This document shows, one piece after another, positions 37,509 through 55,239 of a DNA stretch of 64,000 nucleotides. The DNA is from Antedon mediterranea (Eukaryota > Echinodermata > Crinoidea > Comatulida > Antedonidae). The stretch lies in assembly GCF_964355755.1 (NCBI RefSeq), contig NC_092679.1:10964932-11028931 (forward strand). The letters run 5' to 3'. Each line of letters begins with the position of its first letter. Position 1 is the stretch's first letter. The notes under the pieces were generated by a model that saw only the letters and a list, made by a program, of their open reading frames with translations, ran no database searches and was not told the DNA's origin. Made by a program: the position numbers and the translations under genes.

Positions 37509-39467
37509 TATTTTTATTTATTTTTTATTTATTTATTTCCTTTATTGCATCAAGTAAGCAGTGATGAAGTTGACATAAATATAATAGTAAATATGTAAAC
37601 ACATAGTATAACACAGTCCAAACAAGTAATACTAAAATAAATCATAGTCCACAAATCAGTCTTTCAATGGCCATCATAGTACATCCAGTAACACAAACCA
37701 ATAGGGGTTCACAATTTGCTTATCATAACTCAGTTACTGATCATTCACCAATCATTGAAAACTCCGTGGAAAGTAATGAAGTTTTTTGTGCGTTGTGTCC
37801 GGACTTTGGGGAGGGTGAACGATCTAACGCGTCGGAGCTGATGGTTGTGTGTGGGAGGTTTAGGTAAGAGAGAGTGTAATATATGATCTTCTTTTTTCAT
37901 TTTATCAAAGAATTTTCTTGACAACTTCTCGCGGCGTTCAGATAGAGTGATGATGTTAAGGTATCTGCGGGTATCAGCATACGAGGTACCATCGGGGCAT
38001 ATTATGTTACACGCTCTTCTTTGGACATGTTCGATTTGGTCAGATTGTGCTTTGGATAAACTCGGGGACCAAACAGCACAGGCATATTCGAGAACTGGTC
38101 GTATCACTGCTTGATAGTATCGGAGCAGTTCCAGTCTATCTAGGCCAGACCTCTTGAGTTGCTTAAGAAAAAACAACCTTGGTACAACGCGCTTGATTAA
38201 ACAGTCAACATGCGTCTGCCACGACAATTTACGGTCAAGATTGACACCTAGTAACTTTGTTTTATTCTTTATATCAAACCAACAGTGTAAAACACCAATA
38301 ACAGGTTGAAAATAAAAGCTAAACTATAAAATATGAGCCTATAAAAATATACAAATGAAAAAGAAAATTTTAATAATTTCATTAATAATACATTTAAATT
38401 GAGAAAAATTACAGTTAAAAATATCTAAAGAATTATTTTTTAAAATACAAGAATTGTACAATGACGAGAGTCTACAGAAAATACCATTTTTACAAACATT
38501 GACACGAGAAAATTTAACATGAAGAAAGGGTTTACTACGAAGATTACGAACAGGAACATTAAAATAAAACAACGAAACAAGATCACAATCAAACTTAGAA
38601 GTAAGACATTTATACAGGAAGTGTATGCTCAACACACTTGACTTCAGATCCATTCACAGTGATTGGGTCAAACTCAGTTGGTGTTCTCTTACATGTAATG
38701 CGCAGTTCAACCGATTTTTTCTCATTCAGTTTCATACCATTTTCTTCGCACCATTTAAATATACTGTTCATACTATCTTGAATTTTGCACTCGGAGTTCT
38801 TATTATATCTTTGGTAAAAGGTGGTATCGTCCATATATTTCATAAGCGGCAGATCGACCTGGAGGTCATCAATGAAGGCAACAAACAGGATTGGACCAAG
38901 CCATGATCCTTGTGGGATTCCTCCGTTTGGTTTTAGCCATGGTGAGAAGATATTCTTCAATTTCACTCTGTGTTTTCTATCTGCAAGAAAAGCTTGAATC
39001 CATGCTACAAGAACTTCGTCGATACCTATGTTCTTTAACTTTCTAATTAAAATGTGGTGGTCAATCATATCATACGCTTTGCTAAAATCCAATAGGAGAG
39101 CACGTACTTCCTCGCCATCATCAGTGGCTTGGTACCAGTGATGCAATGATGAGATGAGGGCGTCAGTTGTTGAGACCCCCTTTGAGCTACCAAATTGGTT
39201 GTTTGATAGTTTGTCTTTCAGCTGGTCCCAAACAAGACTACCAATTAAGCTCTCTACAATTTTTGCAGCTACAGATATTAACGAAATGGGTCGGAGATCG
39301 GTTTGGACACAGCGAGGGAGGTTTATTTTTGGTATTGGCACAATATTAGCCATTTTCCAGTCATCCGGGATATACGACTCTTTTGACTCTATTTTGATAT
39401 TGAGTTGTGGGTCATCTAGACGTTGGCAAATTCCTGATACATAGATTTTTCCAGATATTCTGTTCTG
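37509..39467 (-). pseudogene. Element E: L2-like non-LTR reverse transcriptase, 5'-truncated
   Basis: Minus strand: VPIPKINLP, DLRPISLISVAAKIVE, LLLDFSKAYDMIDHH, NGGIPQGSWLGPILF, MKYMDDTTFYQ and LNEKKSVELRI (39353-38640). After an insertion (38260-38622), KLLGVNLDRKLSWQTHV and the C-terminal YYQAVIRPVLEYACAVW follow (38250-37745). The 3' end carries an (AAAT)n tail read as T-rich at 37509-37541. YMDD replaces the commoner YADD or YVDD. Motif order and the SPWL..GGIPQG block suit the L2/Daphne group. Confidence 0.85.
38260..38622 (-). mobile_element. 3' end of another non-LTR retrotransposon nested in element E
   Basis: Minus strand: FLYKCLTSKFDCDLVSLF, VPVRNLRSKPFLHV and KNGIFCRLSSLYN match C-termini of non-LTR RTs. 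It ends in an A-rich tail beside AACAAAG of element E. It interrupts element E between VEHT and KLLGV. Possible 3-bp flanks (TGT) are too short to be sure. Confidence 0.65.
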
Positions 39468-40380
39468 CAGATCATGGACCAGTACTGCACATCAAGGTAT
39501 TGTACGAACTAAAAACAGGATTAGAGAACTATACTGGTTTCCTGCTATAGATCGTAAAGTAGAAGATAAAATTCAGAATTGTGAACCGTGTCAAAATAGT
39601 GATAAGACGGCTAAAACTTACAATGCGCCATTACAACCAGAATGGCAAAAAGTTGCTATTGATATAATAGGCCCATTTGAAAAGGGACCTAGAAAGTGTA
39701 GATATGCTATTGTGCTAGTTGACTATTTCAGTAAATGGCCAGAAGTTTCTTTTACTAATGATATTACATCTACATTTGTATGTTATTTTCTAGACCAGAT
39801 ATTTGCAAGAGAAGGATTACCAAATGAGTTGGTATCCGATAATGGGAAACAATTTGTATCCATAGAGTTTGAAAATTATTTAAAAGAGAGAGGTATTAAG
39901 CACATTAGAACATCATTGTACAATCCTAAAAGTAATAGATTAGTTGAGAGAATGAATAGAATTAAACATACCATTCAAATGGCCAATGAAAATAATAAGA
40001 ATTGGAATGAGGCCATGTTAGAATTTCTCATGATCTATCGATCTACACCACATGCTGTTACACGCATATCTCCTGCAGAATTATTACATAAGCGTAAATT
40101 AATTACTACACTAAATGTAAGACCTACAGATGGTTACCAAAATGGAATTAAAAATACTGAGGTAAAGGAATGAGTTAAAAAGTTCCAAAGTAAAAGTAAG
40201 AAGTATTACGATGATAAGAAAAATGTGAGGAAACCACAATTTAAAGTTGGAGATTCAGTACGAATTAAGAATCCGAGACATGTTGATAAATCAAGTAATA
40301 AGTTCTATACTGGAGGTAAAATTAAAAGAATTGTTAGTAATGCTACATATGATGCTTTACATAATGTCTTAGATCATTTA
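39468..40380 (+). pseudogene. Gypsy-3 integrase
   Basis: Continues Gypsy-3 after the 8.8 kb block. Zinc domain end (ENRIRELYWFPAI-like, CEPCQNSDK), then core motifs VAIDIIGPF, LVDYFSKWPEV, LVSDNGKQF and SNRLVERMNR, i.e. the D, D and E residues all present. A TGA at 40171-40173 follows NTEVKE, and the C-terminus continues as KPQFKVGDSVRIKNP to about 40370. Start is frame-shifted near 39500. Confidence 0.88.
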
Positions 40381-51340: not shown

Positions 51341-52141
51341 ACTAACTATTATATTTTATTAAAAATGTAGTCATTCAATGAGTGTATAATACATGGTTAG
51401 TTTCAACAGTAAATTCATTTTAGACTGTGGGCTACCGTAACCCCCCCTCCCCCCCCCTGGGGATTTTATGACCCATACATTTTTGGAAACCTCACACATA
51501 TAGGTTTTCAAATCAGGTTGTCTGCACATTGCGCAGTGGTGCGTAAACCGATGAGGGCGCTTTTTCCAAAATGGCCGCCAAATTTAATAAAATATTATAT
51601 ATATTGATAAAACAGTAATTTATATGCTAAAATTAACTTGTTTTTTAATTGTTCTGTATTGAAATAATGTGTGGTCAGGTCATGGTATATGTTTGTATTC
51701 CGAAAAGTCAATATAGAGGGCGCATTTCAAAATGGCCGTCGAAAATCATAAAACTTAACAAAATTGAAGTAATTACTAGAAATGATTATATAAACAATCA
51801 GAAAAATGTCAGAATGTCATTTTACCATTCAATAATTTAACTGGTACTGACATTATTTGATTAAACTAATAAAATAATATTATTATTATTAAAATAATAC
51901 AAAAACTTCTATCAAACAAATTAGTTGATGCATGACATTCAACTTTAAACCAATCAGAACACAGATAGCAGTGTAGTAGTCTAGTTGATCAGTTGTATGA
52001 AACCAGTCTAGTCTATATAACATTGAGCTAAATTATCGAAGAAAATTGTGCTTTTTCAACAACAAAGTTAATTCATAGTAAGTATTACAAGCAATTTGCT
52101 CTCCTAGTACAGTACATGGTGCAAAATGTGGACTAGCCTAG

Positions 52142-54410
52142 GCCTAGGAGAACTTGGTAAAACTGCACAGTTCTGGCTTAACTATATGGATCGAGTTTGG
52201 CTTATCCTTCAATTTCAAAGAGCAACTAAGAAAACAATTTTGATTTGCATTTAGCTAGCCTACAAAGAATGTGTAGTCTGTTTTTTAGCTACGACCACCT
52301 AAACTATGCTAGATATACAATGGTGTATTTCCTGTCTCTCCTAAACATATCAGAGACACATCCCGGAGCAGAGGAGCTCTTGCGACACAATGGTTTCAGC
52401 GTTAAACGATCACAAATTCCGATGTCGAGAAATGCTGTTGACATCACAATTGAACAAACTATCAACCGTCACGCAAAGTGCCATGGTGGAATCATAGGAT
52501 TCAGCAGGAACTATTCGGCATATCATAGGTGGTGCACGACAAGACACAGTAGGGCTGGTTACCTGCAAGCCACAATGGAAATGGCAGACATGGATAACAT
52601 GGAATCGACTTCACACAAGGGCTTGAAGTCCTCACACATCATCAACAGTGAACAAGATACTTGCAAGGGTTCTAGCAGCATTTCATAATTTTGTAAATCC
52701 TTTTGTTGTTGAAAACAAGAACGTCCTCTACTGTCTGTCATCAGGTGCACCAGTATCAGATGAGATCGAACGTGATCTCCTCCAGGCTGATAATATTGGA
52801 AAACAGGCTTACGACAAATTTGTTACGCAACGACTTGTTGAAGGCACAGTAAGTTTTCATCATCCAATCAAGAAGTGTAAACTAAAGACATTTGTACAAC
52901 TTGCCAAATCCTGTAAGATCTCGGGACAGTCAAAGAAGACCAAAGAAGTAAAAGCTGAAAGAAATGTATTTGGTCAGCTTGTACTTTTAGCAATGAAGCA
53001 TGACATTAGTATGGAGAGGGTGCTTAGTTTCTCATTGGGCCCTGTTCCATGGGCATTTGCAACGGCTGATGGTGTTCCAGTGAAGACAGACAAGGCAAAG
53101 CTTATGCATGCATTGGTAGGCGAATCGAACACAATAGAAAGGCCGGCTGGAGAAACCACATATATTGTTCACTGAATGGCTCTGCTGCAAGCACAGATGG
53201 CTTTGCCTGATACATTTGGAGACCTGGCAGAGAGTATATTTGGACAGCTGCCTAAGGTAAAACGTGTGGACTTTGTAACTGATACCTACCTCCCACTATC
53301 AATCAAAGGAATTGAAAGGGCTAGAAGAGGTTCTTCTAAATCCCATATAATTAAAGGAGTCAAGACTAAAGAGCCACGAGACTGGAAATCGTTTCTGTCA
53401 AGCGATGACAATAAGATGACACTAACAGAATTTCTACTAAGTGAATGGAAAAAGAATAAATATGCACCAAGTCTTCATGGAAGAGAAGTTGTATTTGGCT
53501 ATACGAATAAATGCATAAGTCTGAAGAGCAATGATGGCCAAGAAACTATGTCTGAGGAACTTACAGAGTTATCGTCAACACAGGAAGAGGCTGATACGAA
53601 GTTGATTCTCCACTGTCTGCAAATTGCCAGAAATTCATCATCCAATTCTACCATAATCATTCGATCTCCAGACACAGATGTCTTCATTCTTCTGCTTCAT
53701 CACACCCAGGAACTGACTCAAACAATACTATTTGATACAGGTGTTGGCAATAAAAGACGTCTTGTAGATGTGCATAAAGTCATAAGTGATGGGGGAAATG
53801 ATGTGTGTCATGCCCTTCCCGCATTACATGCATTCAGTTGTTGTGACACAACCAGTGCATTTGTTCGTAAGTGGAAACTACTACCTTTGAAGATCCTCAA
53901 ACAGCACCAGGAATTTCTTGGTGCATTTCTGACTCTTGGCCGATCATTGGAAATTGCAGATGAAACTCATGAAAGCTTGGAGCATTTTGTGTGCCGTCTT
54001 TACAACACTAAATCTACTGTAACTGACATTAACACTTTGCGACATGATAAATTTCTGGAAAGATTTAGTGTCAAGCCAGGTGCAATACTTTCGACCTATG
54101 ATGGCATGGATATGAGCCTCCCTCCACCTTGCCGAGATGCTCTTAAAATGCATGTTAAAAGATCTAATTATCAAGCGTTTATTTGGTACCAAGCACACCA
54201 AGCCGTACCAAATATCCCTCAACCAGACGGGCATGGTGTATTCAAAATGAAAAGTTGGACTTGAAGTGGACGGAAGGTGATATGATGCCACATGAGCTGG
54301 TTGACGTATTGGTAGAGGAACAGGAAGAGGAGGATGAGGAGGAGGATGATGATGAGCAAACTGAATTTAACAACTTGATGGACATTTTTTTTGACACGGA
54401 AGAAGACTAG
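52142..54410 (+). pseudogene. NUC-1 protein: transposase-like N-terminus plus FEN/XPG-like (PIN) nuclease
   Basis: Read in order with frame changes at about 52230, 52655 and 54250 and one TGA (53173-53175). N-terminal block: TAQFWLNYMDRVWLIL, SYDHLNYARYTMVYF, HPGAEELLRHNGFSV and DITIEQTINRHAKCHGGI. Middle: LYCLSSGAPVS. Nuclease: VPWAFATADG, VDFVTDTYLPLSIK with ERARRG, TQEEADTKLILH, IIRSPDTDVFILL and AFSCCDTTSAF. The EEAD, DTD and CCD motifs have the order and spacing of FEN1/XPG acidic sites. In the 53176 ORF they are residues 137-140, 166-168 and 223-224. The C-terminus is a Glu/Asp tract. The family is common but unnamed in invertebrate genomes. Nuclease activity is inferred only. Confidence 0.7.
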
Positions 54411-54448
54411 ATAATCTTGTTATTGAAACTTTTATTGTAAATAGTAAG

Positions 54449-55080
54449 AAATGGCATTTCCAGTTACTTTTCCATACAACATTCTACTAGAGCAACTATA
54501 AAACCACATGTTCTGAAAAATTTGCAACAATTTCCAAATGTATACTACCAGTAGTTAGAGAGATATGACAAAACCAGGTCAAAGGTCATAAAGGTCATAA
54601 ATGTCACTTCCGGTAATTTTTTGACAAAATGTTTCATTAGAGCAAATAGAAATATGCATATTGTAAACAATTTGAGATCATTTACAAGTGTCTATCATGT
54701 AAAGTCAATGTTATGTCTTTAAAATATGGAAAAAAACCCAATAGTGCACTTTTATTAGAATTGTTGGCAGCCATTTTGACAAAACGGTCAGAAATGGCAT
54801 TCCCAGTCCCCTTTACATAAAACTCTCCATTAGAGCAAGTATAAAACCACATGTTCCAAACAATTTGCGACAAATTCCAAATGTGTACTACCAGTAGTTA
54901 TAGAGATATGACAAAACCGGGTCAAAGGTCAGAGTGACAAAAATGTCATTTCCGGTCAAATTTTTACAAAACTTTTCATTAGAGCAAATAGAAATGTGCT
55001 AACTGTAAACAATTTGAGACCATTTATAAGTCTCTACCATGAGTGGTTGCCAAGATAGAGGCACCTGAGCCTATGGGCAG
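54449..55080 (+). repeat. Two tandem copies of a ~310-bp module in NUC-1
   Basis: Copy 54449-54787 and copy 54788-55080 share GGCATTTCCAGT/GGCATTCCCAGT, TATAAAACCACATGTTC, CTACCAGTAGTTA, GAGATATGACAAAACC, GGTCAAAGGTCA and CATTAGAGCAAATAGAAAT. The same phrases occur in the FB-1 arms and at 19.7 and 42.6 kb. Confidence 0.85.
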
Positions 55081-55239
55081 CCATTTTGAAAACGCGCCCT
55101 CACAGGAATACGCACCACTGCGCAATGTGCAGACAACCTGATTTTAGTTCGTATATGGGTAGGGTTAAAAAAAATACTGGTCCCGAAAAATCCCCAGGGG
55201 GGGGGGGGAGGGTCCCGTGTTTGAGCCCACAGTCTATTT

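Follow-up and report, generated by a model that had tools for sequence, protein, structure and literature searches.

A non-autonomous internal-deletion derivative of a probable Academ-type transposon with a FEN1/XPG-like nuclease domain in the crinoid Antedon mediterranea

The element at the locus and its copies

The window analysed here is a stretch of 64,000 nucleotides from the crinoid Antedon mediterranea (assembly GCF_964355755.1, contig NC_092679.1, positions 10,964,932 to 11,028,931 of the forward strand), and it carries at positions 51421-55236, on the plus strand, a transposon of 3816 bp that is a non-autonomous internal-deletion derivative of a larger element and that encodes remnants of a transposase-like core and of a FEN1/XPG-like nuclease domain. 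The boundaries are defined by terminal inverted repeats (TIRs), by a target-site duplication (TSD) and by two near-identical copies elsewhere in the genome. The left TIR, TAGACTGTGGGCT (51421-51433, plus strand), pairs perfectly over 13 bp with the right TIR (55224-55236, minus strand), and the flanks show the TSD TTT at 51418-51420 and at 55237-55239, in keeping with exact 3-bp repeats at sister loci. Inside the TIRs lie a left subterminal inverted repeat with an internal C-run (51442-51570, plus strand) and a right one with an internal G-run (55084-55212, minus strand), the inward pairing being 92% between 51442-51467 and 55187-55212 and 82% between 51479-51570 and 55084-55175. Overall, the inverted right end matches the first 159 bases of the element at 79%. 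A first-pass annotation, made by a model from the sequence letters, had described just such a bounded element with perfect 13-bp ends, inward pairing and TTT flanks, and this description holds. The 3' non-coding part additionally contains diverged direct repeats (54439-55041) with spacings of 343 bp and about 150 bp.

Searches of the host genome (354 Mb, 18 contigs) scored part of their candidates (113 of 722 in the one for transposase-like frames, for example), and the locus counts drawn from them are consequently lower bounds. DNA searches with the ends found the 200-bp left end complete at at least 11 loci and partially in one miniature copy, and the right end intact to its last base at at least 13 loci, with the whole query covered in eight; some of these terminal sequences contain mismatches. 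An exact 3-bp duplication was present at all nine loci with both ends readable (TTT, TTA, CAA, TAG, TAG, CAA, ATA, TTG, and AAA), and it extended to 4 bp at none of them. Counted among the nine is the miniature copy at G000:C2:10602301-10602395, which has 95 bp, comprises hardly anything beyond the two ends of the window element and is flanked by a TTG duplication. Seven loci with a single readable end (C7:21699991, C1:28805678, C10:8463303, C2:20543660, C3:14593514, C4:25292553, and C11:15147354) were excluded from this count. The element in the window is thus a real mobile element that generates 3-bp target duplications, and the supposition of the first pass that ends and gene move together was borne out, as both are shared at several genomic sites according to the end searches and the comparison of copies.

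An undeleted relative at C10:8463303 contains an open frame of 1360 amino acids (L014) and, upstream of it, a frame of 161 amino acids. A BLAST comparison with this copy places the deletion junction of the window element at 52146-52148, with a 3-bp overlap and about 2.9 kb missing. The deletion is mostly coding and takes out the 161-residue frame together with the residues up to about position 605 of the L014 frame, including both D regions of a D-D-E-like pattern. Since the junction was found at 11 of the 12 loci examined, with C10:8463303 as the sole exception, a single derivative of a full element of about 6.7 kb accounts for these 11 loci and was presumably moved in trans. It counts against this reconstruction that the only undeleted copy found lacks the right terminus. 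The copies in the window, at C1:40309 and at C3:19688 have lengths of 3812-3817 bp, and an alignment of the three shows differences in a total of 14 columns, six of which fall in C or G runs. Because these near-identical copies each carry different target duplications, the deleted form has been mobile repeatedly and recently. In all three, the first nuclease motif is interrupted by the stop codon, and they therefore presumably relied on protein provided in trans.

The reading frame of the window copy is broken between the frames 52230-52688 and 52627-53175, the latter ending in a TGA at 53173-53175, and the following frame, 53176-54264, is open over 362 amino acids and holds the acidic blocks described below. 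Of the single gene proposed in the first pass, the acidic blocks therefore remain, and its intactness is contradicted by the frame break, the stop codon and the missing 2.9 kb. As a derivative that moved recently and is now dead, the window copy is in itself an ordinary finding.

The FEN1/XPG-like nuclease domain

The active site of FEN1/XPG nucleases comprises seven metal-binding carboxylates in the order D, D, E-x-E/D, D-x-D, D. In the window, a degenerate domain with this layout is recognised at 53068-54153 (plus strand, as are all its parts) by sequence profiles and conserved residues. Its first catalytic position, which had been overlooked in the first pass, is lost: at 53170-53175 the window encodes a histidine followed by the TGA stop, where the undeleted copy has Asp-Gly (VDG to VH-stop). 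The alignment places the second carboxylate (VTDTY), which is followed by a conserved lysine and a conserved arginine, at 53281-53283, the E-A-D block (QEEADT) at 53587-53595, the D-T-D block (SPDTDV) at 53671-53679, and the last carboxylate at 53845-53847, where the window reads CCDTTSAF and the undeleted copy GCDTTSAF. An acidic C-terminal tail (54168-54410) is encoded in a different frame from the nuclease in the window copy.

Among eight families, all from this genome and 28-41% identical to the first, only seven acidic residues are invariant, namely D33, D70, E172, D174, D200, D202, and D258, and these reproduce the layout of the FEN1 active site as judged by sequence; the lysine and the arginine after the second carboxylate are likewise invariant. 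In an alignment of 21 sequences, which was confined to matches covering more than 200 profile positions and which two frames of the family L066 as well as L124 narrowly failed to enter, D33 was conserved in 15 of the 15 sequences reaching the column, D70, K78, and R85 in 18 of 18, E172, D174, D200, and D202 in all 21, and D258 in 20 of 21. At the site of the last carboxylate, the two frames of L066 have GND and GNE.

A wider profile (A9) was built from seven of the eight family sequences plus L149, L150, and L134, with L061 left out as its C-terminus is cut short. Searched against the PDB, its five best matches were all Exonuclease 1 (best E 6.3e-6), the next one having an E-value of 0.52. In hhalign comparisons with 19 archaeal FEN1 sequences (A6; selected by the analyst from 53 loci of a genome-contig scan), A9 scored 39.8, and none of 200 column-shuffled FEN1 profiles reached this value (mean 15.2, maximum 25.3); the reversed FEN1 profile gave 16.3. 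Two narrower profiles scored 30.0 and 33.7, with shuffle maxima of 26.9 and 28.2 (0 of 200 in either case), and 15.7 was obtained when the transposase-like domain of these proteins was compared instead. An unguided full-length alignment placed D33, D70, K78, D200, D202, and D258 onto FEN1 D27, D80, K87, D173, D175, and D236, respectively, and R85 onto FEN1 R94 with one profile and onto a glutamate with the other.

Several results weigh against this assignment. In A9, the first site is a glutamate in L134 and E172 is replaced by aspartate in L149 and L150, and only the counterparts of D70, D174, D200, D202, and D258 are invariant. A profile of eight sequences (A2) again had Exonuclease 1 on top in the PDB search but with an E-value of 0.065, and the hhalign probabilities were modest, with values of 14.7%, 3.2%, 8.3%, 18.9%, 27.5%, and, for A9, 49.6%. 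In the unguided alignment, the E-x-D block is shifted by two residues relative to FEN1, E172 being placed onto the second glutamate of E-x-E. A single-sequence AlphaFold2 model of the window protein reached a predicted local distance difference test score (pLDDT) of 40.7, and Foldseek found no match to it at E ≤0.001. The Pfam domain XPG_I was matched neither by the three window frames nor by seven long proteins of the related families; the best result, obtained with L149, stayed below the cut-off (E 0.023, 15.5 bits versus 24.9), although as that protein's single Pfam match it speaks for the assignment. On balance, the profile matches and the carboxylate layout indicate that the C-terminal domain is FEN1/XPG-like, as the first pass had proposed from the acidic blocks. 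With these carboxylates conserved in all eight families, the nuclease is probably no mere passenger but required for transposition.

A number of weak matches were set aside. Foldseek matches of the low-pLDDT window model (Hsp70 and others) had E-values of at least 0.045 and were not taken as evidence for a fold, matches of window pieces in Pfam/NCBIfam (e.g. NYN, E 0.11; Phage_HCP1, E 0.08; PaaD, E 0.025) were regarded as chance, and phmmer with the window frame against the PDB returned only a ribosomal protein (E 0.45). The same search returned nothing for L149 and only an iron transporter (E 1.2) for L150. Viral contigs searched with this family yielded no relatives, and none were obtained there with FEN1/XPG/EXO1 exons as queries either. 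L149 and L150 (G000:C2:33496800 and C8:971600) form a diverged lineage whose nuclease is more FEN-like (VFDGY, AEDTDILVLL) and which can help to link the family with canonical XPG nucleases.

The transposase-like core upstream of the nuclease

Upstream of the nuclease, the frame 52230-52688 (plus strand) was identified by frame reading and alignment as the relic of the C-terminal part of a transposase-like core (NYARY, TIEQTIN). In all seven aligned proteins that reach far enough, the region N-terminal to the nuclease contains the motifs DNxD, [FYVA]D, Gx[FL]H, and a D...E..N block, which in the family of the window reads DITIEQTIN; the E block of one family aligns only after a one-residue gap shift. 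The proposed catalytic residues are separated by 164-175 and 219-249 residues in the seven families. According to the alignment, the conserved glutamate, a candidate for the E of the D-D-E triad that corresponds to E708 of the L014 frame, is encoded at 52452-52454 (plus strand). The block TIEQTINRHAK, which the first pass had placed in an N-terminal block belonging to a large unnamed invertebrate family, can thus be specified as the E part of the D-D-E-like pattern, a pattern that in some families is related to the Pfam domain DUF6589.

The upstream domain would be a DDE core with a large insertion. This assignment is based on pattern and spacing, since profiles of the core matched no solved transposase in the PDB, which counts against it. 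A match of the middle domain to a cGMP-kinase (E 0.0014, or 0.03 with a longer profile) was taken as chance because the aligned region lies between the conserved D blocks. Of the seven long proteins, L058 and L061 exceeded the cut-off for DUF6589, and two others (E 0.0004 and 0.019), like L134, remained below it; the absence of a match in the remaining three, L059, L064, and L014, the last representing the window's own family, argues against the Academ-type reading given below. The D-D-E-like pattern and the nuclease are located in the same polypeptide in the undeleted copy and in the related families. Among the matches listed, an XPG-like match adjoins 13 of 17 long frames (at least 800 amino acids) with the transposase-like domain. 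Two of the other four were fetched, and both show nuclease motifs by eye; the remaining two, at C4:14282716 and C7:22466951, were left unread.

Several further elements were noticed. L066 (G000:C5:28736493-28740334) is a near-perfect palindrome with arms of about 1.67 kb (97%), the ends TAGACTAGGC and a GTA/GTA duplication, and each arm includes the C-terminal part of the XPG-like domain. Close to the end of the element lies a 303-bp segment that was scored at no fewer than 40 places with 97-100% identity, with both arms counted in some cases, out of 1853 first-look candidates, and because of these many near-identical matches the element looks abundant and recent. The left end of the family L060 is TAGTCTGGGAGCCC, and members of this family, L139/L141 (from G000:C10:12118939 on), possess terminal inverted repeats extending over 850 bp, in which units of about 289 bp, and others roughly half as long, are arranged in tandem. 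The twin copies of L058 are identical through the left flank, and hence no duplication is readable there. At 39445-40173, the window also contains an open frame of 242 amino acids that by eye resembles a retroelement integrase.

Relation to Academ transposons, alternatives and a possible mechanism

The reading we favour, with a probability of about 0.8, is that the window element derives by internal deletion from an Academ-type, AcademX-like cut-and-paste transposon and is non-autonomous, the comparison with Academ being made by published descriptions. The nuclease of AcademX is of the XPG type. AcademX is reported with duplications of 3 or 4 bp and AcademH with duplications of 9 or 10 bp, the former being linked to a nuclease and the latter to a helicase (PMC10045372). 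PMC9587614 lists Academ among the DDD/E superfamilies, and curated bivalve Academ consensus elements are given a mean length of 5565 bp in PMC10294476, to which the full element of about 6.7 kb comes near. The family of the window resembles AcademX in being a TIR element with 3-bp duplications and a large protein combining a transposase-like core with an XPG-like nuclease; the one copy examined of the palindromic family L066 has a 3-bp duplication too. The window copy itself differs from AcademX in being cut to 3.8 kb, in the loss of both D regions and of the first carboxylate of the nuclease, and in the degenerate state of the nuclease. With AcademH the family shares DUF6589, which is matched in some related families, the tie being suggested by a single locus (L133, G000:C5:20779500-20787500) where a DUF6589 frame of 397 amino acids stands beside a convergent Helicase_C frame of 470 amino acids. 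It differs from AcademH as described in PMC10045372 in having a nuclease instead of a helicase, for which no match was found in the seven long proteins, and in its 3-bp duplications. As L133 looks like an AcademH element, DUF6589 would be the Academ core; a DUF6589 frame similar to that of L133 is present at C9:8123266. Academ membership is likely but not proven. The first-pass idea of a short Academ relative can accordingly be kept with respect to Academ, given the duplication length and the nuclease, and is to be dropped with respect to natural shortness, as the element was reduced from about 6.7 kb by deletion.

The first pass had also considered that catalysis might lie with the nuclease domain alone, in which case the transposition chemistry would differ from that of DDE enzymes. 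The window copy does code mainly for the nuclease domain, and the middle domain resembles no solved transposase; yet the window form arose by deletion, its first nuclease carboxylate is lost, and exact duplications of fixed length, as found at all readable loci, are what staggered strand transfer usually leaves behind. Since a conserved D-D-E-like core lies upstream of the nuclease in the same polypeptide of the undeleted copy and of the related families, a nuclease acting as sole transposase is very improbable, and a new chemistry is unsupported. Still less credible is a captured or domesticated host nuclease gene with coincidental transposon ends. The frame 53176-54264, open for 362 amino acids, would be compatible with such a gene, but the nuclease-bearing unit occurs with identical ends at different sites with different duplications, and a genome scan with XPG_I gave four matches above the cut-off from six candidates, all at loci other than this family, three of which were read by eye as exons of host FEN1, XPG, and EXO1, while the fourth was the weakest (33.8 bits). 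Compared with FEN1, XPG, and EXO1, the family shares the carboxylate layout, the Lys/Arg pair and the GCD block, and differs in having E-x-D for E-x-E, in the fusion to a transposase-like core and in its sub-threshold XPG_I match.

The family might instead belong to a separate, unnamed DDE superfamily that gained an XPG-like nuclease independently of Academ, which we regard as unlikely. This would agree with the patchy occurrence of DUF6589, with a comparison to Academ drawn from descriptions, and with the indirect equation of DUF6589 with the Academ core, no mention of DUF6589 having been found in the literature searched. Against it stand the combination of duplication length and accessory nuclease reported for AcademX in PMC10045372, and the presence of the AcademH-like DUF6589 and helicase locus in the same genome.

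If the Academ-type reading is followed, the element of about 6.7 kb would encode one protein of at least 1360 amino acids with an N-terminal Cys/His-rich region (recognised by eye), a DDE core with the proposed catalytic residues D291/D294, D459, and E708 of the L014 frame and Gx[FL]H after the second aspartate, and a C-terminal FEN1/XPG-like nuclease. The DDE core may nick the DNA and join the 3' ends of the transferred strands at a 3-bp stagger, and the FEN/XPG domain may cut or trim the other (5') strand or a flap at the ends; both activities are predictions, which likewise tells against the scheme. In Tn7, labour is divided between the DDE recombinase TnsB and a second nuclease, TnsA. A similar division is conceivable here, with nuclease folds that are unrelated in the two systems, and the protein might then be a eukaryotic single-chain counterpart of TnsA plus TnsB, in which two active sites of unrelated origin serve the transferred strand (DDE) and the non-transferred strand (FEN/XPG); we consider this a tentative and rather doubtful proposal. 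Deleted copies without both D regions would be mobilised in trans by the protein of a fuller copy, and since such copies have spread, a protein with two active sites would need to work entirely in trans. Ds-type derivatives of Ac and of similar elements are internally deleted, retain intact ends and spread without encoding transposase. The window derivative resembles them in all these respects and belongs to another superfamily.

With the analysis presented here, large and otherwise unnamed proteins of this genome that combine D-D-E-like and XPG-like parts are placed in one mobile-element framework, and the role of the XPG-like nuclease in Academ-type transposition becomes testable.

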